From: Saccharopolyspora sp. NFXS83
GTDB lineage: Bacteria; Actinomycetota; Actinomycetes; Mycobacteriales; Pseudonocardiaceae
DNA: 64,000 bases
Direction of reading: 5' to 3'
Assembly: GCF_026241095.1 (NCBI RefSeq)
Contig: NZ_JAPFGB010000010.1
Span: 62,001 to 126,000 of the forward strand
Part shown: positions 35,419-56,866 of the stretch, one piece after another
Layout: each line of letters begins with the position of its first letter
Numbering within the stretch: the stretch's first letter is position 1
Position numbers and translations under genes: made by a program
Notes under the pieces: model-generated
The model's database searches: none
What the model was told of the DNA's origin: nothing
What the model saw: only the letters and a program-made list of their open reading frames with translations

Positions 35419-36583
35419 GGCTGACCTCCCCGTCCCGAACGTCGAAGCGGGTACCAGCGAGCTCGGCGGGCACGTCCTCCCCCACCGCGGCGGTCACCAG
35501 CACCTGCTCGGCGCCCGCGACCAGCTCGGCCAGCCGTGAACGCCGCCGCCGGTCCAGCTCCGCGAACACGTCGTCGAGGATCAAGACCGGTTCCGCGCCA
35601 TCTTCGGCGAGCAGGTGGTACGAAGCCAGCCGCAACGCCAGCACGAACGACCACGATTCGCCGTGACTCGCGTAGCCCTTCGCCGGCAGCTCGCCGAGCA
35701 CCAGGTCCAGGTCGTCGCGGTGCGGTCCGACCAGGGACACGCCCCGCTCCAGCTCCTGGCCGCGCACCCGCTCCAGCTCCACGACCAGCGCGGACTCCAG
35801 CGCGGCCCGGTCGGCCCGCGGCCCCATCGGCACGCCGTACCCCTCGGGAAGCGAGTCGCCGAGGCTGCTGCGGTACCGCAGGTCCGCGACCCGCCCGGCA
35901 GGAGCGCTGTCCGTGCCCGTCTCGGCGACGCTGGCATAAGCGCTGGTCACGTGCGGTGCGATGTCGGCGACCAGGTCGAGCCGCGCCGCCAGCAGGTCCG
36001 CGCCGTGCTTCGCGAGGTGGCCGTCCCAGACCTCCAAGGTCCGCAGGTCCGGCGCCTGACCGCCGCGGCGCGCGCCGCCCGCCGACTTCAACAGCGCGCT
36101 GCGCTGCCGCAACACCCGCTCGTAGTCGGAGCGCACCCCCGCGTACCGCGGCGACCTCGACACCAGCAGCTCGTCCAGGAACCGGCGCCGCTCCCCCGGA
36201 TCACCGCGCACCACCGCGAGGTCCTCCGGCGCGAACAGCACCGTGCGCAGGATGCCCAGCACGTCGCGCGGCTTGCCGGGCGCCCCGCGGTTGATCCGCG
36301 CGCGGTTCGCCTTGCCCGGCGTGATCTCCAGGTCGACCAGCAGCTCCCGGCCGTCGTTGATCACCGCGGCCCGCACGAACGCCCGCTGCGAGCCGTAGCG
36401 CACCAGCGGCGCATCGCTCGACACGCGGTGCGACCCGAGGGTGGCGACGTAGCCCAGTGCCTCGACCAGGTTCGTCTTGCCCTGACCGTTGGAACCGACC
36501 AGCACGGTCGGCCCCGGTTCGAAGGTCAGGTCGGCCTGCGGCCACGAGCGGAAGTCGGTCACTTGCAGATGTCGGACGTACAA
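35408..36583 (-). CDS. recF: RecF DNA repair ATPase
   Basis: A 391-residue SMC-like ATPase that loads RecA at gaps. Walker A is GSNGQGKT (30-37), the signature [15 protein letters not shown] follows in the middle, [11 protein letters not shown] is conserved, and Walker B is [14 protein letters not shown] start at TTG 36583 ([14 protein letters not shown]) because this is the exact family N-terminus and GGGAG precedes it; the ATG at 36688 adds a Gly/Arg-rich leader. Stop overlaps the dciA-like start. Confidence 0.95.
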
Positions 36584-36729
36584 AGCGCTCCCACCGGATC
36601 GGGTCGCACGAGCGGGACGCGCGCGGAACCGGCCGCAGCCGAGGAACCCCCGGCCGGGCACGTGGTGAGGTGACCCGCTCGGGATCACCTCACCGACATG
36701 TCACCGTGTCGACATGGCGACTCGGCGAC

Positions 36730-37617
36730 TCAGCCCTCGTTGGTCTCCACCGCGTGCCCGCCGAACTGGTTGCGCAGCGCGGCGACGGCCTTCATCGCGG
36801 GCGAGTCGTCCTGCCGGGAGGCGAACCGTGCGTAGAGCGCGGCCGTCATCACCGGGGTCGGCACGGCGTTGCGCACCGACTCCTCCACCGTCCAGCGGCC
36901 CTCGCCGGAGTCCGAGACGTACCCGCGCAGCTTCTGCAGCTCCGGGTCCTCGTCCACCGCGCGCACCAGCAGGTCCAGCAGCCAGGAGCGGACCACGGTG
37001 CCGCGGCTCCACGCCTTGATCGTCGCGGGCACGTCGGTGACCACATCGGAGGCAGCCAGCAGTTCGAAGCCCTCGGCGTAGGCCTGCATCAGGCCGTACT
37101 CGATGCCGTTGTGCACCATCTTCGCGTAGTGCCCGGCGCCGACCGGGCCCGCGTGCGCGAAGCCCTCCTCGCGCGGACCCTCCGGGCGCAGCGCGTCGAA
37201 GATCGGCAGCGCGCGCTCGACGTCCGCGGCGTCGCCGCCGGCCATCAGCCCGTAGCCGTTCGTCGCGCCCCACACCCCGCCGGACACGCCGACGTCGACG
37301 TACTTCACGCCGTGCTCGGCGAGCAGGGCCGCGTTCGCCTGGTCCTCGGTGAACCTGGAGTTGCCGCCCTCGATCACCAGGTCTCCCTCGGAGAGGACCT
37401 CGGCGAGGGCGGCGATGGTCTGCTTGGTCGGTTCACCGTGCGGAACCATGATCCACACGATGCGCGGGCCGGGCAGCCCGTCCACCAGGTCGGCGATCGA
37501 GGCCACGTCGCTGACCTCTTGGTTCCGGTCGTAGCCGACGACCTCGTGCCCGGCGGCCCGCAGCCGCTCGCGCATGTTGAAGCCCATTCGGCCGAGACCC
37601 ACAAGTCCCAGTTGCAC
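36730..37617 (-). CDS. gnd: 6-phosphogluconate dehydrogenase, short NAD-type
   Basis: A 295-residue enzyme of the short (about 300-residue) 6PGDH class, which oxidatively decarboxylates 6-phosphogluconate to ribulose-5-phosphate. QLGLVGLGRMGFNM is the N-terminal dinucleotide motif, IEGGNSRFTED and VGVSGGVWGATNGYGLMAGG bind substrate, and GHYAKMVHNGIEYGLMQ has the catalytic Lys and Glu. GTG 37617 follows GAAGGGGA. Placement between dnaN and recF is typical of actinomycetes. Confidence 0.93.
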   Translation of the reverse strand: MQLGLVGLGRMGFNMRERLRAAGHEVVGYDRNQEVSDVASIADLVDGLPGPRIVWIMVPHGEPTKQTIAALAEVLSEGDLVIEGGNSRFTEDQANAALLAEHGVKYVDVGVSGGVWGATNGYGLMAGGDAADVERALPIFDALRPEGPREEGFAHAGPVGAGHYAKMVHNGIEYGLMQAYAEGFELLAASDVVTDVPATIKAWSRGTVVRSWLLDLLVRAVDEDPELQKLRGYVSDSGEGRWTVEESVRNAVPTPVMTAALYARFASRQDDSPAMKAVAALRNQFGGHAVETNEG

Positions 37618-37726
37618 CGGATCTTCCCCTTCGAGACTGGTTGTTGCCCGAGCCTGCCGTTCCGGCGCGACCCGGTGTCGCACGTGATCGACGCCCGCGC
37701 GGATCGCGGCGGACGCCGGGACCACC

Positions 37727-38851
37727 TCAGCCCGGCAGGCGCACCGGCATCAGCAGGTAGAGGTAGCCCTCGACCACCTCACCATCCTCCCCGACCGGTT
37801 TGAGCAACGCGGGGCGGTTGGATGTGGTGAACAGCATCTGGGCGCGGTCGGTCTTGAGCGCTCCCAGGCCGTCGAGCAGGTACGTCGGGTTGAACGCGAT
37901 GGTCAGCGGCTCACCGGCGAGCTCCACCGGGAGCTCCTCTTCGGCGCTGCCCTCGTCGTCGCCACCGGCGGTGAGGCGCAGTCCGGAGTCGGAGAACTCC
38001 AGCCGCACCTGGGTGCCGCGCTCGGCGACCAGCGACACGCGCTTGATCGCCTCGACGAGCGGGGCCACGTCGATGATCGCGGTCGCGGCGGTCTCGGACG
38101 GCAGCAGCTGGCGGTACTTGGGGAACTCCGCGTCCAGCAGCCGGGTCGTGTTGCGGCGGGTCGTCCCGGACAGCCCGAGCAGGCCGTCGCCGGAGGCGAG
38201 CGAGATCTCGACCTTCGCGCCGGAGCCGCCGAGGGTCTTGGCGGACTCGGCCAGGGTCTTGGCCGGGACGAGGATCGCGGTGTCGTTGATCGACTCGTCC
38301 GGCTCCCAGGTGAACTCGCGCATCGCGAGCCGGAACCGGTCGGTGGCGACCATGGTGAGCCGGTCGGCGTTGATCTCCATGCGGACGCCGGTGAGCATCG
38401 GCAACGTGTCGTCCCGGCCGGCCGCGACCGCGACCTGGGCCACGGCGGCGGAGAACAGATCGCCGGGGACCGCGCCGGCCCGTTCCGGCATCGCGGGCAG
38501 TTCCGGGTAGTCCTCGACCGGCATGGTCGGGAGGCTGAACCGGGAGCTGCCGCAGGTGATCGTCACGCGGGAACCGTCGACGGTGATCTCGACGGGCCGG
38601 TTCGGCAGCGACTTGGTGATGTCGGCCAGCAACCGCCCGGAGACCAGCGTCTTGCCGGTGGAGTCGATGGAGGCCTCGGTCGTGACCTGGGCGGAGACCT
38701 CGTAGTCGAAGCCGGAGATGGTCAGCGCTTCGCCGGAGCTCGCGTCCAGCAGCACCCCGCCCAGCACCGGGACCGGTGGCCGCGACGGCAGGCTGCGCGC
38801 GACCCAGGCGACGGCGTCGGCAAGACCGTCACGTTCCACGCGGATCTTCAT
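37727..38851 (-). CDS. dnaN: DNA polymerase III beta clamp
   Basis: A 374-residue sliding clamp. It begins [20 protein letters not shown] and ends [11 protein letters not shown], both normal for DnaN, with the three clamp repeats in between (e.g. [46 protein letters not shown]). ATG 38851 follows AAAGGA. It lies on the same strand as dnaA, across the oriC region, with 321 bases before the first DnaA box. Confidence 0.98.
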
Positions 38852-39172
38852 CGATGTCCTTTCGGTTTCGGCCGAGGCCGGCTGCCGGGGAGAACGCTGC
38901 TGGCGCCGTGGGGGCGGCCAGCTCCGGGAGTGCTGTTGCTGCGTGCGGGGCTTTCGGAGGTCGGAGCTCCGCGACGTCGCTCGGGGTGCGGGCCACCTGA
39001 GGCGGGCGGCACCTGGTTCGAGGCGCTTCGGAACTCGTCCCACGAGATGGCCGGGAGCTCGGGGCTCCGCTTCGGACGACCATCGCGGGAGTCCCACCGT
39101 AGAGCGTTCGGCGTGATCGCCGCATCCGGGTCCAGGCTCTCGAAGCGCTCGGTTCTGGCCGTCGAGGCGAAG

Positions 39173-39620
39173 TTGTCCACTTGTCCACCGCCCCTCTCTC
39201 TTCTTTTTTTCTTCATTCAAAAGAAAAGAAAAGAGAGCAGTAGTAGTAAGGGTTGTGGGTTGTGGGGATAACCCTTGTTTTGGCTGCTCAAAGCACCCGG
39301 TCAGCTGTGGATGGGGACTGGGGGTAACCGGTGGATGGTCTGAACGGGTCGTGGACAACTTTTGACCGATCCGAGGTTGTCCACATCGAGCCCATGTTGT
39401 CCACACCTCCATCCACAGCTGACCCCCGAGTTGTACCCAGCCTCTGCGGATGAACCGGTGTTTCGGGCACCTCCACCGATCGGGTTGTGGGCAGATCTGT
39501 GGGTTTCCTGTGGCCAACCGGGGGATGGCCTGTGGGCAGGTCGGGGATCGTTGTGCACAGGGTGTGCATGGATTGGGGAAAACTCCAGCTCAGACCTGGG
39601 GACAGCCGAGCTGTGGACAA
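39173..39620. other. oriC: oriC: DnaA-box region between dnaN and dnaA
   Basis: DnaA boxes: TTGTCCACT 39173 and TTGTCCACC 39181 (overlapping), CGTGGACAA 39350, TTGTCCACA 39377 and 39397 (both perfect), TTGTGCACA 39551 (one mismatch), TGTGGACAA 39612 (perfect). Weaker forms lie between, including TTATCCCCA-like sequence at 39261. Location between dnaN and dnaA is the standard actinobacterial origin. The interval (38852-40408) contains no believable gene. Confidence 0.93.
39190..39250. other. Candidate DNA-unwinding element with DnaA-trio
   Basis: A T-rich then A-rich tract (39191-39238) with CTCTC/GAGAG ends is by far the most AT-rich stretch seen. It is followed by AGTAGTAGTAA at 39239-39249, then GGGTTGTGGG and the DnaA boxes. 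This matches the order DUE, TAG trinucleotides, GC patch, boxes described for B. subtilis-type origins. Assignment is by analogy. Confidence 0.6.
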
Positions 39621-39636
39621 GTCGGCCACATCGCGG

Positions 39637-39685
39637 CTTTTCTGGCGAGGGGTGAGGGCAAGACCACTTCGCCTGTGCAGAAAAG
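39637..39685. repeat. oriC dyad copy A: CTTTTCTG-N33-CAGAAAAG
   Basis: 8-base perfect inverted repeat separated by exactly 33 bases, next to the last DnaA box. Internal pairing GCGAGG/CTTCGC is possible. Two similar dyads follow at 39866 and 40010. Confidence 0.6.
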
Positions 39686-39865
39686 TCGGTGCCCGCGAAC
39701 GCCCCTAGACGAGGATCGGGCGCTCGACCCGGCGTGCTGCGTGCGCTGTGCGTCCAGATGTGCGCGGAGCGTGCCGATTTTCGGGTTCTCCACAGGCGTG
39801 CACCGGCTGCTGGTGGCCGCGCGGGGACCGCTGAGCGGTCGTTCGGACCCGGTCGGCGGCTGAAT

Positions 39866-39912
39866 CTTTCTCCCGGAGCGGGGTGGAGCGGCTTCGCGGG
39901 TCCAACAGAAAG
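39866..39912. repeat. oriC dyad copy B: CTTTCTC-N33-CAGAAAG
   Basis: CTTTCT pairs with AGAAAG across the same spacing. It is extended outward as CTGAATCTTTCT (39860-39871), which is repeated inverted at copy C. Internal CCCG/CGGG pairing is possible. Confidence 0.6.
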
Positions 39913-40009
39913 GTGCGGCGCCCGTGGTCGCACGGGGAGGTCCCGGCGTGGTGCCGCGAGCGGACGCCGCCCGGTGCCGGGGCGCGGACCCGCGGAGGAC
40001 GGCGACGAA

Positions 40010-40056
40010 CTTTCTGCTGAGGCGGCCCGGTCGCGGCCGGGTCCCACGGCAGAAAG
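40010..40056. repeat. oriC dyad copy C: CTTTCTG-N33-CAGAAAG
   Basis: Perfect stem CTTTCTGC/GCAGAAAG with an internal GGCCCGG/CCGGGTC stem. It extends to AGAAAGATTCAG (40051-40062), the exact inverse of CTGAATCTTTCT at copy B. Confidence 0.6.
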
Positions 40057-40408
40057 ATTCAGCGGTTCCGGCCGGGAGGACGCCCCGGCGGCTAGGCCGC
40101 CCGCGCGGCGGCCATGAACATCAGCACCGGCTGCCCGAGCGCTACGAGCACCGTTCGACACGGGCGCTGGAGGACTGAGGCAGGTGCCCAACGGCTCGAT
40201 GCAGTGACGTGCAGCGACTCAGTGATACCACTGGCGCGTGCCGCTCAGTGCTTCTCCGGAAGTGCCGCCGACCCGCTCAGCCACCGCGTGAAAGGCTCCT
40301 GAGCTGGAATGACGGTGGCGAATCGGCTGCGGCTCGAACCATCGGGACCCGCGAACGAGGCCGCCGGAGAGACCGCACCCGCCGCCGGACGGGACGCTCG
40401 ACGACCGC

Positions 40409-42268
40409 TCAGCCGCGCGACTGCTGCTTGATCCGGGAGGTCAGCTCCTGCACCTGGTCGTAAACCCGGCGGCGCTCGGCCATCTCCTTGCGGATCTTCT
40501 TGTCCGCGTGCATCACCGTCGTGTGGTCCCGGCCGCCGAAGCTCTGCCCGATCTTCGGCAGCGACGAATCGGTCAGCTCCCGGCACAGGTACATCGCGAT
40601 CTGCCGGGCCTGCGCCAGCGCCTTCGTCTTGCCCGGACCGCACAGATCGTCGATGGTGACCGCGAAGTACTCCGCGATCACGGCCATGATGGTCGGCGCG
40701 GTGATCTCCGGGGTCTGCGAATCGGGGATCAGGTCTCGCAGCACGATCTCCGCGAGCTGCACGTCCACCGGCTGCCGGTTCAACGACGCGAATGCCGTGA
40801 CCCGGATCAGCGCCCCTTCCAGCTCGCGGATGTTGCGCTCGATCCGGGCGGCGATGAACTCCAGCACCTCGGCCGGCGCCGCCATCCGGTCCTGCGCGGC
40901 CTTCTTGCGCAGGATCGCGATGCGCGTCTCCAACTCGGGCGGCTGGATGTCGGTGATCAGCCCCCACTCGAACCGCGTCCGCAGCCGGTCCTCCAGCGTG
41001 CGCAGCCCCTTCGGCGGCCGGTCGGAGGACACCACGATCTGCTTGTTCGAGTTGTGCAGCGTGTTGAAGGTGTGGAAGAACTCCTCCTGAGTTCCTTCCT
41101 TGCCCTCCAAGAACTGGATGTCATCGACCAGCAGCACGTCCACGTCGCGGTAGCGGCGCTGGAACGCCACCTGCCGGTCGTCGCGCAGCGAGTTGATGAA
41201 GTCGTTGGTGAACTCCTCCGTGGACACGTACCGCACGCGCATCCCGGGGAACAGCCGCTGGGTGTAGTGCCCCACGGCGTGCAGCAGGTGGGTCTTTCCC
41301 AGCCCGGACTCGCCCCAGATGAACAGCGGGTTGTAGGCGCGGGCCGGTGCTTCCGCCGCCGCCACCGCCGCCGCGTGGGCGAACCGGTTCGAGGCGCCGA
41401 TGACGAAGGTGTCGAAGGTGTACTTCGCGTTCAACCGGGTCTGCGAGGTCGGCGGCGCGTGCTTCGGCGCGGTGAACGGCTGGCCCGGTGGATGCTGCTC
41501 GGCGTGCTGGCCGCGGCCGAAGGTCGGCCACACGTTCGCCTCAGTCGGCGTGGAGTCCTCCTGGTCGGCGGACTCCTCCTCCACCTCGTCCTCGTCCTGC
41601 TCGGCGACGGGGTCCTGCGCCGTCGGCCACTGCTCGGCGTAGCGCTCCGGCTCGGCCCGGCCTTCGGAGGAGTACTGCGGCTCGGCCGAGTACTGGGATT
41701 CCGGCGCGTAGGACGGTTCCGGGCTGTACTTCGGCTCCGGCGCGTACTGCGGTTCCGAGGCGTACTGCGTGCCGACCTGCTTCGCGGGAAGCGAACCGCT
41801 GATCGAACCGCTCTGCGCGGAGCTGCCGAACGCCTCCGGACGGCGGGACTGCGCGGAGTAGGCGGTGGGGCCGCTCGCGATGTACGGCGAGGAGTCGTAG
41901 GCGATGCCGAATCCGGCGGGCCGCTCGGCCGCGGGCTCGGATCCGGTGCGGGCCGGGGTGTCGGGGCGTGCTTCCGGCGCGGCCAGGGGACGGGTCGGCG
42001 CGGGCACCGCGGTGTCGACCTTGACCGCGAGCGAGACCTCCCGGCCCAGCCGGCGCGAGAGCGCATCGGTGATCGGGTCGCGCAGCGCCCGCTCGATCGC
42101 TTCCTTCGCGAAGTCACTGGGAGCGGCCAGCAATGCCGTACCATCCAGTAGGCCGATCGGCCGGGTCACGCGCATCCAGGCGCGTTGTTGCGGCGACAGC
42201 GTGCCGGAGGACAACTCCAGCACGACCTCGTCCCAGACCCGACCAAGCTCGGATTGGTGGTCGGACAC
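40409..42268 (-). CDS. dnaA: DnaA replication initiator
   Basis: A 619-residue AAA+ initiator. Domain I begins [14 protein letters not shown]; domain II (about 90-270) is long, acidic and contains Tyr-Ser/Ala-x-Glu-Pro repeats. Domain III has Walker A GESGLGKT and Walker [16 protein letters not shown]; domain IV ends with [15 protein letters not shown], the box-reading motif. GTG 42268 follows GGGGAG; the longer frame to 42316 is unlikely. It is transcribed toward oriC, and perfect DnaA boxes lie upstream for autoregulation. Confidence 0.98.
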
Positions 42269-42859
42269 CCCTGCGCTCCCCTCGCCGGCACGTGACCCGC
42301 ACCGTGACTCCCACACCTGTTGCCAGTGCGGTGCTGCCGGCGCGGGGTGATGATGAACTGGCTCCGCGAACGCCCGGGACAGGTATCCACAGAGTTATCC
42401 ACAACTGTGCATGAAGGTACGGCAGCGAACCTCGGACATCCCCCCTGGGGCCCCGCCGCGGCTGCGATCCAGGTGACGCTCGGTGCCGACGGCTCCCACA
42501 CCGCCGGGCGCGCCTCGCAGGAGGGACAACCTAACAAGGCCGAGATCACCTCACAAGGCGGGTGCTCGCAGGCCTCCGGGGCCCGGCTGAGCACCCCGGT
42601 GACCGGGCATCGGAGCAGGCGGCGTAGCCTCGTGCAGTCCCCCGCCGCACGAGCGGGAATGTCGCCGCGCTTGGATTTCGCCAGATCTCCGAGCACAGTG
42701 CGCGGGGCACCACCCGGTGTCACCGCGTGCAGACTCCCCTCGTTCAACGGGGGTGAGCTCGACACGATGGCCGCTACGGCGGGCGGGGACATCTTGACCG
42801 AGCCATCGGGCCGAGCACGTGCCTGTTTCAACGGGCCTGAAGTAACGGGGAGATCCACC
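42269..42859. promoter_or_regulatory. dnaA-rpmH divergent promoter region
   Basis: 591 bases without a gene. DnaA boxes GTATCCACA (42383-42391, one mismatch) and TTATCCACA (42395-42403, perfect) lie about 115-140 bases before dnaA and fit autoregulation. TTCAACGGG recurs at about 42744 and 42827 toward rpmH. No convincing -35/-10 pair was found. Confidence 0.7.
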
Positions 42860-43003
42860 GTGAGCAAGGGCAAGCGCACCTTCCAGCCGAACAACCGTCG
42901 CCGTTCCCGCAAGCACGGGTTCCGGCTTCGCATGCGTACCCGCGCCGGTCGCGCCATCGTGTCCGCGCGTCGCCGCAGGGGCCGCAGCTCGCTGACCGCC
43001 TGA
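42860..43003 (+). CDS. rpmH: Ribosomal protein bL34
   Basis: A 47-residue basic protein, [20 protein letters not shown] then [20 protein letters not shown], unmistakably L34. GTG 42860 follows GGGGAG. The reading frame is open far upstream (to 42320), but those residues are not part of the family. It leads the rpmH-rnpA-yidD-yidC-jag cluster. Confidence 0.97.
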
Positions 43004-43013
43004 TTACCGGTCA

Positions 43014-43643
43014 GTGCTACCCGCGGCCGCCCGGCTGACCACTAGCCAGGAGTTTCGCCTGGCGGTCCGTCGTGGCCGCCGTGCGGGTCGTGCCCGGCTG
43101 GTGGTGCACCTGCTGACACCGAACGCGGCGGCTCGGACCGAGGTCCGGGGCGCCGTGGCCGGTTCTGCACGTCCGGAGGTCGGCGCAGCGTCGATCGGAC
43201 CGGATCGCGATCGCCGGGATTCGGCGGTGGGCGACTCCGGCCGAGCGGTGCGTCCGGAGCCTGCTCCGGGGCGTACCGCCGAGGTCGCGCACGCGCTGCC
43301 CGCCTCGGGCGGTCCTGGTGCGGAACCAGCGGCGTCGTCCGCGGAGAACTCGCGGCCGACCTCGGACATCGAACCCACTCGGGATACCGGCGAACCGGCC
43401 CGCGTGGGTTTTGTCGTGAGCAAAGCCGTGGGCAACGCGGTGCTGCGGCATCGGGTGACCCGGCGACTCCGGCATCTGATGCGTGACCGCCTTCCACTGC
43501 TGCCCGCTGGCACACTGGTGGTGGTGCGCGCACTCCCTCCGGCTGCGAACGCACCGAGCCGTGATCTCGGATCGGATCTTGATGCGGCGCTGCGCAAATT
43601 GCGCGTGGCGCAGCCCGGCGGTCCGGTGGCGGGTTCCAGATAG
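43014..43643 (+). CDS. rnpA: RNase P protein component with a long insertion
   Basis: A 209-residue protein where the family is usually about 115-135. Residues 1-37 ([29 protein letters not shown]) and 127-209 ([40 protein letters not shown]) are normal RnpA. Between them are about 88 residues rich in Ala, Gly, Pro, Ser, Arg and Glu with no domain. The insertion sits in the loop between the first two beta strands and keeps frame. GTG 43014 is 10 bases after the rpmH stop. It processes tRNA 5' ends with the RNA subunit. Confidence 0.92.
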
Positions 43644-43658
43644 CGGCGGAGGCCCCGG

Positions 43659-43982
43659 ATGTCGGAAACGCATGACCACGGCGGACCAGCACGGCCGAGT
43701 CCGGCCGCCTGGCTGCTGCTGGGCCCGGTGCACGTGTACCGAAAGATCATCTCGCCGCTGCTCCCGCCGACCTGCCGGTTCTACCCGAGCTGCAGCGCCT
43801 ACGCGGTCGAAGCGCTGACTGTGCACGGAGCGCTCTACGGCAGTTGGCTCACCGCGCGGCGGTTGTTGCGCTGCGGCCCATGGCACCCCGGCGGCCTCGA
43901 CTTCGTCCCACCTCGGCGGGACCGCGCCGGGCGATCGGCGGCCGAACCGGGCGAAGCGCCCCGATCCCCCGCGGAGGACTAG
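43659..43982 (+). CDS. yidD: YidD membrane protein insertion efficiency factor
   Basis: A 107-residue protein with the YidD core [20 protein letters not shown] then [20 protein letters not shown] and [18 protein letters not shown]. Its three conserved Cys and amphipathic N-terminal helix place it at the inner face of the membrane, assisting YidC. The C-terminal 22 residues are variable. Its TAG stop shares a base with the yidC GTG. Confidence 0.95.
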
Positions 43983-45031
43983 TGCTCGACTTCATCTACT
44001 ACCCGGTCTCGGCGATCCTCTGGTTCTGGCACGAGATCTTCGGCTTCGTCCTCGACCCCGCCAGCGGGTACGCCTGGGCGCTGTCGGTGGTGTTCCTCGT
44101 CTTCACCTTGCGAGCGTTGCTGTTCAAGCCGTTCGTGCACCAGGTGCGGTCGATGAAGAAGATGCAGGAGTTCGCCCCGCAGGTCCGCTCCCTGCAGGAG
44201 AAGTACGGCCACGACAAGCAGCGGCTCGCGCAGGAGATGCAGAAGCTCCAGCAGGAGCAGGGGTTCAACCCGATCTCCGGTTGCCTGCCGATGCTGGTGC
44301 AGGTGCCGGTCTTCATCGGTCTGTTCCACGTGCTCAACGGGTTCCGTCCCGGCGCGGACTCGAACTTCGTGTTCGGCAAGGAGGAAGTCGCCTCCTTCGT
44401 GTCCGCCGACCTGTTCGGGGCGAAGCTGTCGAACACCATCAGCCAGGCCCCCGACGTGCTCGCGGCCTTCGGCACGGACCGGACGTCGATGTTGGTCGTC
44501 GGCGTGCCGCTGATGATCGCGGCGGCGATCGCCACCCACTTCACCTCGCGGCACTCGGTGCAGCGCCAGACTCCCGAAGCGGCGCAGAACCCGCAGACCG
44601 AGATCATGAATCGCATGGTGCTGTGGGTCTTCCCGATGTTCGCCATCATCGGTGGCCCGTTCCTGCCGCTGGCGATCCTGCTGTACTGGCTCGCCAACAA
44701 CTTCTGGACCTTGGCCCAGCAGCGGATCGTCTACACCCGCATCGACCGCGAGGAAGCCGAGTCCGCCGCTACGGCGATCGTGATCGACGGGACCGCGGTC
44801 ACCACGACCGCCCCGGAGGCGTCGACCACCGCGGCCTCCGCCTCGGAGGCCGCTCCCGCTCCGGCGATCGATGCGACGCCCGCGACTGCGGAGCCGGACG
44901 AACCAGCCCGCGACGAGGAGGCCGACGACGCCTCCCCCGTGCGGCCGGCCGCCACCACAGACCAGCCCGGTGATGCTCCCGGGGTGCTCGAAGACCGTTC
45001 CCGCGACAACCGGCCAGGCGAGTCCCGCTGA
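43982..45031 (+). CDS. yidC: YidC/Oxa1 membrane protein insertase
   Basis: A 349-residue insertase of the Gram-positive type without a large periplasmic domain. Five membrane helices are visible (PVSAILWFWHEIFGFVL; WALSVVFLVFTLRALLF; MLVQVPVFIGLFHVL; MLVVGVPLMIAAAIATHF; VFPMFAIIGGPFLPLAILLY). ISGCLPMLVQVPVFIGL is a family signature. The tail is Ala/Thr/Glu-rich with no lipobox. GTG 43982 overlaps yidD. Confidence 0.97.
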   Translation: MLDFIYYPVSAILWFWHEIFGFVLDPASGYAWALSVVFLVFTLRALLFKPFVHQVRSMKKMQEFAPQVRSLQEKYGHDKQRLAQEMQKLQQEQGFNPISGCLPMLVQVPVFIGLFHVLNGFRPGADSNFVFGKEEVASFVSADLFGAKLSNTISQAPDVLAAFGTDRTSMLVVGVPLMIAAAIATHFTSRHSVQRQTPEAAQNPQTEIMNRMVLWVFPMFAIIGGPFLPLAILLYWLANNFWTLAQQRIVYTRIDREEAESAATAIVIDGTAVTTTAPEASTTAASASEAAPAPAIDATPATAEPDEPARDEEADDASPVRPAATTDQPGDAPGVLEDRSRDNRPGESR

Positions 45032-55457: not shown

Positions 55458-56261
55458 TCAGCCTCCCAGGGTGCTGTCGGAGATCGTCGCGGGGCGGTCC
55501 GGGCCGCAGTCCTGGCCGACGACGAGGATGCGGAACCGGCCGATCCCGCCGCCTTGCAGCACCAGCGCCCTGGCCGGCTCGCCGTCGATCGTGACTTCGC
55601 GGGCACCGAGCGGGTTTCCGCTGTTCACGCCGTTGGCTTGCAGGCATCCGAGCAGCTGTGCGGGGTCGGCGAGCGCGCCGTACTGCTCGGATCCGAGCGC
55701 TTCGCCGAGCCGATCCGCCGGGAACGCGTCTCCGCGCAGCGCCAGTGGCGGCGGGCCGTCCTGGGACGGCGCGGCGGAGTTGTCGGTCTCCCCCTGCTGG
55801 GGTCCGCCGGTGCCGAGCACCACGATCCCCGTCACCGCGGCGGCCGCGGTGATCAGGCCCGCCGTCCAGCCCGCCCGCTTGCGCCTGCGGTGGCGAGCGG
55901 CGGCGAGGTCGAGCACCGGGGCGGGCTCGGCTTCGGCGTCCTGGCCGGTGGCCCCGGCGTCCGCGGAGTCCGAGGTCGCGGCCTCGGGAACCATGGACCA
56001 GGAGCGCAGTTCCGCCGCGAGCGCGTCGTCCAGCTTGGCCGCGACGTCGTCGGGCACGGCCGGTGCCGGCAGGTTCGCCAGCTCGGCGCTGGTGGCTTCC
56101 AGCGCGGCGAGCAGCTCGCTCGCCTCCGGGTCGGCCTGGATGCGCGGCAGCAGCTCGTCGACCGTCTCCTGATCGAGCACTCCCGCGTGCAGATCGGCCA
56201 CCAGATCCAGCGACCACGGTGGGCCTTGCGGCGTTTCGGGGCGCCGTTGTTCGCCGCTCAT
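55458..56261 (-). CDS. rsmA: Anti-sigma factor, SigM-associated
   Basis: A 267-residue membrane protein. The cytosolic N-terminal part (about 1-130: LDLVADLHAGVLDQETVDEL ... PDDVAAKLDDALAAELRSW) would bind sigma; one membrane helix follows (AGWTAGLITAAAAVTGIVVL) and then an extracytoplasmic domain with two Cys (LLGCLQANG; GQDCGPDR). It overlaps sigM by 4 nt. No ZAS motif, so sensing differs from RsrA-type anti-sigmas. Assignment to the SigM pair is from gene order and architecture. Confidence 0.85.
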   Translation of the reverse strand: MSGEQRRPETPQGPPWSLDLVADLHAGVLDQETVDELLPRIQADPEASELLAALEATSAELANLPAPAVPDDVAAKLDDALAAELRSWSMVPEAATSDSADAGATGQDAEAEPAPVLDLAAARHRRRKRAGWTAGLITAAAAVTGIVVLGTGGPQQGETDNSAAPSQDGPPPLALRGDAFPADRLGEALGSEQYGALADPAQLLGCLQANGVNSGNPLGAREVTIDGEPARALVLQGGGIGRFRILVVGQDCGPDRPATISDSTLGG

Positions 56262-56866
56262 CGTCCCTCCCGTCGACGCTTGGCGTTGGCGTCATCTGGG
56301 ACGTTCGCATCCGCACTCGGGTTCCGCAGGTGTCCCAGAAGTTTCGCCAGCTTCACCCGGCCGCGGGCGCAGCGGCTCTTCACGGTGCCTTCGGCGACGC
56401 CGAGGACGGCGGCGGTGTCGGACACCGAATAGCCCTCCACGTCGACCAGCACGATGGGCGCGCGCTGCTCCTCCGGGAGGGCGGCCAGCGCGTCCTGCAC
56501 GGCCATCCGGGTGTCCTGCTCCTCGATCGCGTCGCGCGGAACGGCCGGCTCGGCCGGCCCGGTATCGGGCAAGGGCACCGTCGGTCTCGCCTGGCGTCGG
56601 CGGATGCGATCCAGGCAGGCGTTCACCACGATGCGGTGCAACCAGGTGGTGACCTGGGATTCCGCTCGGAACGATGCTGCGTTTCGGAACGCGGAGATCA
56701 TCGCGTCCTGCAGCGCGTCGGAGGCGTCCTCGTGATCGCGCATGGTGCGCAGCGCGACCGCCCACAACCGATCGCGGTGCCGGCGGAACAACTCGGCGAA
56801 CGCGTGTGGGTCACCGCTGGTGTGCGCCGCTATGAGGTCGGCGTCCGATCTGACGGGGGCAGACAC
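56258..56866 (-). CDS. sigM: ECF sigma factor SigM
   Basis: A 202-residue ECF sigma. Region 2: DALQDAMISAFRNAASFRAE with the -10-reading helix; region 4: EEQRAPIVLVDVEGYSVSDT then AAVLGVAEGTVKSRCARGRV. Linkage to its anti-sigma, trxB and trxA matches the SigM locus. GTG 56866. In mycobacteria SigM acts under oxidative or late-growth conditions; its role here is inferred. Confidence 0.93.
   Translation of the reverse strand: MSAPVRSDADLIAAHTSGDPHAFAELFRRHRDRLWAVALRTMRDHEDASDALQDAMISAFRNAASFRAESQVTTWLHRIVVNACLDRIRRRQARPTVPLPDTGPAEPAVPRDAIEEQDTRMAVQDALAALPEEQRAPIVLVDVEGYSVSDTAAVLGVAEGTVKSRCARGRVKLAKLLGHLRNPSADANVPDDANAKRRREGR

Follow-up and report, generated by a model that had tools for sequence, protein, structure and literature searches.

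The window analysed here is a stretch of 64,000 nucleotides from Saccharopolyspora sp. NFXS83 (contig NZ_JAPFGB010000010.1, positions 62,001 to 126,000), and contains dnaA (40409..42316, minus strand, with the start codon as given by the ORF finder) and dnaN (37727..38851, minus strand, 374 aa). Pfam comparisons of 20 of the 51 predicted window proteins revealed an ordinary origin neighbourhood, with a 6-phosphogluconate dehydrogenase, a DciA-domain protein, a YidC-family protein, ParA and ParB. The dnaA-dnaN gap contains a cluster of DnaA boxes that includes two perfect boxes TTGTCCACA on the plus strand (39377-39385 and 39397-39405, spanning 39377..39405). The gap also holds a perfect box TGTGGACAA on the minus strand (39612..39620). 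On the dnaN side of the main cluster lies an AT-rich segment with an adjoining TAGTAGTAG run (39194..39250, no strand assigned); the segment is almost invariant in an alignment of the window with three relatives, and we take it to be a candidate unwinding element and the run to be DnaA-trio-like. Elsewhere in the family, dnaA and dnaN are separated by 2.1-3.1 kb, roughly double the usual gap, in several genera (L153, L154, L164, L168, L177, L179, L180 and L184).

Inside this gap, between dnaA and the main box cluster, we located three long dyads, which the DnaA boxes separate from the AT-rich segment; their sequences, coordinates and common 33-base spacing, re-read in the window, were as the earlier note had described. 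Dyad C, the DnaA-box-proximal copy (39637..39685), has the arms CTTTTCTG and CAGAAAAG around a 33 bp interior, and its core (TTTCTG at 39639-39644 and CAGAAA at 39678-39683) is 18 bp from the perfect box TGTGGACAA. Dyad B (39866..39912; arms CTTTCTC and CAGAAAG, interior 33 bp) shows one mismatch in its left arm, C for G at the last base, and its 12 core bases are perfect in genomes G001, G002 and G003. Dyad A, proximal to dnaA (40010..40056), has the arms CTTTCTG and CAGAAAG, also with an interior of 33 bp; none of the three is assigned to a strand. Their conserved part is TTTCTG-N33-CAGAAA (hereafter N33), and the adjoining gAAnY is more loosely kept. Between dyads B and C, at 39786-39794, there is an isolated DnaA-like box TTCTCCACA, which reads within CCTGTGGAGAAC on the dnaA strand and, unlike its surroundings, is kept in the window and the three relatives.

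The exact combination of TTTCTG arms and spacing 33 occurs twice within 39500-40408. Dinucleotide shuffling of this segment never produced two occurrences of one combination with AT-rich arms (at least four A/T of six) in 1000 shuffles, and did so in 14 of 500 when arms of any composition were allowed. The recurrence of the dyad is therefore beyond chance in the window alone, and the relatives give stronger support. The earlier note had also proposed that outer and inner arms share a centre at 39961. In the window this is exact, since CTGAATCTTTCT (39860-39871) and AGAAAGATTCAG (40051-40062) are inverted copies of each other around that point; in the alignment the relation is lost in G002 and G003 and persists, with one mismatch in 11 bases, only in the nearest relative, G001. 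We consequently set it aside as a feature, regarding it mostly as the half-site consensus GAATCTTTCT met twice.

To follow the element across the Pseudonocardiaceae, we searched 180 of its genomes for dnaA, finding the gene in 178, and took the region after dnaA from 60 of them (59 usable, L169 being left out with 64 bases) and from 20 more, 79 in total; for L176, L182 and L210, in which no dnaN start was found, the available sequence or fixed lengths were used. This sample is not random and favours genera where the element had already been found: all listed members of genera g1 and g26 were included for that reason, and 11 of the 20 later genomes belong to genera known to carry it (g20, g23, g17 and g2). 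With a criterion of TTTCTG...CAGAAA at spacing 31-34 and at most one mismatch, 39 of the 79 dnaA-dnaN regions, from 14 of 40 genera, carried the pair, in 101 readings that include at least one arm pair counted at two spacings (L140, 31 and 33). Three controls (reversed arms, and the true arms at spacings 21-24 and at 41-44) gave zero matches in the same 79 regions. The earlier note was right to regard the outer motif and its fixed spacing as the real evidence, and absence from other Pseudonocardiales origins, which it had named as a refutation, was not what these 39 regions showed; the TTTCTG-type pair was absent from the other 40 genomes and from 26 of the 40 genera.

All sampled members of g1 (six genomes; the genus of the window), g13 (two), g26 (eight), g20 (six), g17 (five), g23 (three) and g2 (two) contain the element, which was also present in single genomes of g6, g14, g18, g24, g11, g30 and g101; those of g11, g14, g24 and g30 have one copy each, with one mismatch. 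At the level of single genomes, G017 has three perfect cores and G331 has none. Related genomes share copies by descent, so these counts are not independent events. In a DnaN protein tree (74 sequences, one gene), element-bearing genomes fall on both sides of the midpoint root, indicating that the element may be ancestral in the family, with subsequent losses or changes.

Beyond this sample, 36 of 80 named loci, mostly of other families, were scanned over the 1.7 kb after dnaA (spacings 20-59, at most one mismatch). Matches came from Saccharopolyspora L045, with three pairs, and from a Rhodococcus MAG, whose only pair, at spacing 33, carried one mismatch; among these loci, Pseudonocardia, Amycolatopsis regifaucium and two Pseudonocardiales MAGs gave no match. 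When whole loci were searched for 7-base arms 33 bases apart, allowing up to two mismatches, L043, L046, L099, L107 and L122 also gave one match each. A search of five groups of named loci for other recurrent long dyads found none of this kind, the exceptions being repeated palindromes in Nocardia and conserved blocks in Streptomyces. The Nocardia palindromes resemble ATTCCTCGAGGAAT, surround a TGTGGA word and occur after dnaA in all four loci inspected (L049, L050, L057 and L096); they are possibly another clade-specific origin site.

The distance between the arms is remarkably constrained within lineages. Among the 19 genomes first found with the element, we counted 36 exact pairs at spacing 33 against four at the 83 other spacings (range 6-89), and in the 40 other genomes nine of 11 exact pairs had spacing 32. 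This grouping into 19 and 40 genomes was made post hoc, and the controls on the 79 regions and the 20 further genomes are fairer tests. In those 20 genomes, 11 of them carriers, all ten exact pairs fell at 31-33 of the 84 spacings examined, as did, at 31-34, 31 of 36 pairs with up to one mismatch. The exact pairs of g20 and g23 are at 32, with a few g20 copies at 31 and 33.

A weight-matrix scan of 34 genomes lacking a 32/33 pair, with the spacing-32 copy of L162 left out, retrieved five pairs at spacing 33, three at 34 and eight at 26, compared with a mean of 0.6 per spacing. Once these results were known, we relaxed the half-site of the 26-bp class to TTWYTG; in the 40 genomes without the main type, 15 of 19 such pairs had spacing 26, and they occurred in eight genomes of g54, g9 and g31 (L149, L154, L164, L178 and L226-L229). 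Eight of the 40 genomes without a TTTCTG-type pair thus have this sister form, TTATTG...CAGAAA/CAATAA, with exactly 26 bp between the arms. Its arms enclose two facing DnaA-like words, GTGGAc..cccTCCcCA, with an excess of GTGG/CCAC of z 6.6 in 15 copies. Spacing is therefore clade-specific: 33, 32, or exactly 26 with the variant half-site TTATTG.

Conservation within a copy is concentrated in the arms. Between genera, identity was 96-99% for the 12 core bases, 44-48% for the 33-base interior and 33-50% for the 50-bp flanks; the core value is partly built in, as copies were selected with at most one core mismatch, a weakness from which the zero controls are free. The half-site extends softly to A-n-Y-TTTCTG, or about gAAnYTTTCTG. 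One strand of the interiors is rich in C, a bias that would not be expected of a simple symmetric dimer site. Positions A, B and C can be traced in g1, g13 and g26, and the interior of dyad C shows partial conservation of its own, approximately GTGGYCTTCGCCTCACCC when read on the dnaA-coding strand and GTGGTCTTGCCCTCACCC in g1. All 15 printed copies of dyad C have a DnaA-box word, mostly cTGTCCACA, at 17-19 bp (18 bp in 11 of them), and one arm of this dyad has been lost in two g26 genomes, L137 and L138. In two g20 genomes a dyad continues straight into a DnaA box, CAGAAAAGTTGTCCACA, and one g23 copy continues into TTGTCCGAA, which is not a full DnaA box; in other genera, such as g17, g23 and g30, copies sit among the DnaA boxes. 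The distance from dyad to dnaN varies from 464 to 1283 bp, whereas that between dyad C and its DnaA box is kept.

This proximity raises the question of whether DnaA itself is the binder, the dyad being a composite DnaA site with weak boxes inside and arms that act as extra contacts or as a filament boundary. With duplicate sequences counted once, DnaA boxes with 0-1 mismatch occur in eight of 92 interiors, compared with 0.1 expected, and boxes with 2-3 mismatches in 22 of the 42 interiors of the N33 clade, compared with about 9.8; the facing words of the 26-bp variant and the constant distance of dyad C from a DnaA-box word point the same way. However, the conserved arms, TTTCTG/CAGAAA, are unlike the DnaA box TTRTCCACA, which forms no part of the conserved sequence, and 54 of the 92 interiors have no box within three mismatches. 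Moreover, all eight strong boxes trace to g2, g17, g23 and g30, genera whose dyads sit among DnaA boxes anyway, and among the genomes listed, both those carrying the element and those lacking it show about 89-100% identity over the C-terminal 302 residues of DnaA. The excess of GTGG/CCAC was z 2.4 in the N33 class, against z 1.6 in its flanks, a weak enrichment of DnaA-like words in interiors of the window's clade; in the N32 class it was z 1.7. Together, the interiors suggest a link between the dyads and DnaA, and we consider DnaA as the dyad-binding protein to be unlikely, albeit the best placed of the alternatives.

To examine whether the element is confined to origins, we searched 17 whole genomes. 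All 28 exact N33 pairs found in them adjoin dnaA at oriC; G018, G429, G459 and G027 contain no exact N33 pair. When one mismatch was allowed at spacing 33, 16 of the 17 genomes gave matches, partly further oriC copies and the rest elsewhere, several of which are repeated sequences (six in G027, three in G487), and the reversed-pattern control gave zero to two per genome. An order-wide search with exact 7-mer arms (a 14-base pattern) retrieved five genomes out of 397, of which four belong to the family, while the reversed pattern retrieved four genomes; the match from another family, in G058, was taken as chance, its locus lacking dnaA and dnaN (best dnaA match, E 0.29). With all 28 exact pairs at oriC, we rejected a mobile or dispersed repeat, or MITE.

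We also considered a regulon of half-sites, as GAAYYTTTCTGYYG (at most one mismatch) forms a dense cluster in the window's genome, on contig C8, and another cluster in G487, and rejected it: the C8 sites are members of a distinct palindromic repeat family (GGAAGGGAACCTTCCTGTCA...), which has no match in the window (E ≤ 10), and they were not counted as sites of the same factor. GGAAGGGAACCTTCCTGTCA and its inverse form a dense intergenic family, with 78 of the 80 C8 matches outside predicted ORFs, and eight of ten scanned C8 proteins belong to common enzyme or transport families. These repeats are gathered in one chromosomal block of about 125-250 kb (approximately 9.8-173 kb on C8 of G000, L201-L209; 5.303-5.444 Mb on G001:C1; 1.031-1.156 Mb on G002:C1; and 3.86-4.11 Mb on G487:C2). 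All listed matches lie inside the block in G001 and G487; G002 is covered by part of its matches, and G000 and G003 are represented by counts only. Where its distance to oriC is readable, in three genomes, the block lies some 1.0-1.4 Mb away; the repeat had no match in G005 and G017, and its reversed-pattern control gave zero in all seven genomes.

Restriction to the origin bears on two further explanations. The dyads could serve to anchor or segregate the chromosome, with a protein that tethers or organises the origin (parS-like or nucleoid-organising) and exerts no control of initiation. That exact N33 pairs are origin-restricted, multi-copy and dimer-like would fit such an element, as would the position of most copies outside the DnaA cluster in the window and close genera. 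Segregation sites, however, are usually spread over a wider region, and no exact N33 copy lies elsewhere in the 17 genomes; the phasing with the DnaA box likewise argues for an orisome role. The site of ParB, parS, is a GTTTCACGTGAAAC palindrome, of which none of 92 copies contained a version within four mismatches (0.5 in shuffles). We judge a pure anchoring role improbable, to a degree close to that of DnaA binding and slightly greater.

Less plausible still is that the dyads are operators for transcripts through the dnaA-dnaN gap, affecting replication via transcription only. The region is intergenic and inverted repeats are common among operators, but the absence of exact N33 pairs away from oriC in the 17 genomes means that no regulon is seen, and it is the distance to the DnaA box, not that to dnaN, that is kept.

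The earlier note had left three readings open, a structured RNA family, a cruciform-forming element and a spaced protein site, and had remarked that each copy could form a second, internal stem. For the first two, we analysed 43 distinct N33 copies, counting duplicate sequences once here and in the folding tests. Over 14 possible arm pairs, standard pairs occupied 68.6% of cells compared with 70.6% after shuffling, with a covariation score of 0.101 compared with 0.124 in shuffles; six of these pairs, the core, are nearly fixed by copy selection and hence uninformative, so that covariation bears only on stems extending beyond the invariant core. Position by position, six of 88 tests had p < 0.05, about the chance level, and the CAAAAA right arm of six of the 12 distinct dyad C copies would place a C-A mismatch in a stem. 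As plus-strand RNA, copies A and C, arms included, fold more favourably than sequences shuffled over their full length (z -5.3 and -3.3). Copy B folds poorly (z -0.5 and -0.7). When the interior alone was shuffled, in 58 copies (without the L162 copy at spacing 32), the mean z was -0.28 and -0.32 on the two strands; the inner stems are not conserved and look like chance. Rfam comparison of 36000-44000 gave seven weak matches, none at the gathering score and none overlapping the dyads. Despite the good folding of copies A and C, the few single positions with p < 0.05 and the invariance of the core, a structured RNA or DNA cruciform built from arms and inner stems is thus very improbable, given flanking pairs that do not covary and interiors that fold no better than shuffled ones. 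Symmetry without covariation is the expected trace of a protein dimer reading two half-sites.

The third reading, a spaced protein site, is supported by the fixed spacing, the restriction to oriC, the lack of covariation in the flanks and the phasing with the DnaA box. The dyads are a bipartite, inverted, multi-copy element of double-stranded DNA with fixed spacing, whose exact N33 form is restricted to the origin and phased to a DnaA box. A review of origin-binding proteins includes SeqA, Fis, IHF, Spo0A, CtrA, HP1021, AdpA, MtrA and IciA in its Table 2 (PMC4285127), and for actinobacterial origins its accessible text lists, besides DnaA, only AdpA, IciA and MtrA. As described in that part of the review, their sites resemble the dyads in being non-DnaA, sequence-specific, within oriC and often near DnaA boxes, and through them DnaA loading or unwinding comes under the control of a second protein; in the same text, TTTCTG/CAGAAA does not appear among the binding words, and no word is described as a pair of inverted half-sites 33 bp apart (PMC4285127). 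The MtrA boxes of the Mycobacterium tuberculosis oriC, as presented there, come close in being actinobacterial and in forming several two-part boxes dispersed between DnaA boxes (PMC4285127). Unlike the dyads, which are inverted TTTCTG words, the MtrA boxes are direct repeats of GTCACAgcg-like words.

In addition to parS, and to the DnaA box in the interiors, we scanned the 92 copies for the words of four of these proteins. The MtrA box GTCACAGCG, scanned as a single word with up to two mismatches, occurred in ten copies compared with 11.4 (sd 3.3) in shuffles. Likewise, with up to one mismatch, the AdpA site TGGCSNGWWY was found in seven (13.2 in shuffles, sd 2.5) and the HP1021 box TGTTWCW in 53 (62.9, sd 4.0), so that none of these three words is enriched. 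The Spo0A box TGWCGAA (up to one mismatch) was slightly above its shuffles, in 11 copies compared with 6.4 (sd 2.5); Spo0A is a firmicute protein. The 39-mers of the Vibrio cholerae chromosome II origin, regulatory sites of about 40 bp bound by the origin-specific protein RctB, are alike in architecture only, and differ in sequence, organism and initiator. The genome papers of Kutzneria albida (PMC4210621) and S. espanaensis (PMC3469384) mention oriC and, in their accessible text, describe no such element. We found no description of the dyads in the literature searched, a coverage outside which most subscription journals lie and which does not prove absence from print. A non-DnaA protein site in oriC is of a known kind, and what is new, as far as checked, is the sequence, the long fixed spacing and its clade-specific change.

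From the pattern of conservation, we consider that the dyads are probably double-stranded binding sites for a dedicated origin-binding protein other than DnaA, most likely a dimer or a dimer of dimers. The site would consist of inverted half-sites, about gAAnYTTTCTG, at a spacing fixed by lineage (33/32 bp, or 26 bp with TTATTG), present in the window and close genera in one to three copies, mainly on the side of the DnaA cluster away from the AT-rich segment and with one copy phased to a DnaA box. Measured between their centres, the half-sites lie 39 bp apart, or some 3.7 helical turns of 10.5 bp each, and a protein acting as a dimer or tetramer might bind both at once. Such dual binding could promote or limit the loading of DnaA at the adjacent box, and could act likewise on the weak DnaA-like sequences inside some dyads, so helping to set the timing of initiation. 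Weighing against this reading, the TTTCTG-type pair is missing in 40 of the 79 genomes and the element is not universal.

As for the gene of the binder, the 20 window proteins scanned with Pfam included no clear candidate; their only DNA-binding families are ParB, the DciA-domain protein and an ECF sigma factor (56258-56866), and the protein encoded at 55458-56261 had no Pfam match. More tentatively than for the binding site itself, and on the sequence comparisons presented here, we propose that an orisome protein dedicated to the origin and so far undescribed might exist in the Pseudonocardiaceae, perhaps since their common ancestor. It would clamp the two half-sites on either side of one or two DnaA protomers, and in this view the half-site has changed along with its spacing between clades. 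If this were true, a second, clade-tuned code for a partner of the initiator would exist beside the DnaA boxes, written as TTTCTG at 33/32 bp and as TTATTG at 26 bp. The dyad is a sharply defined bait of 45-57 bp, present in three copies in one oriC, which should pull down its partner directly, and the site would thus make the control of initiation in these actinomycetes testable.
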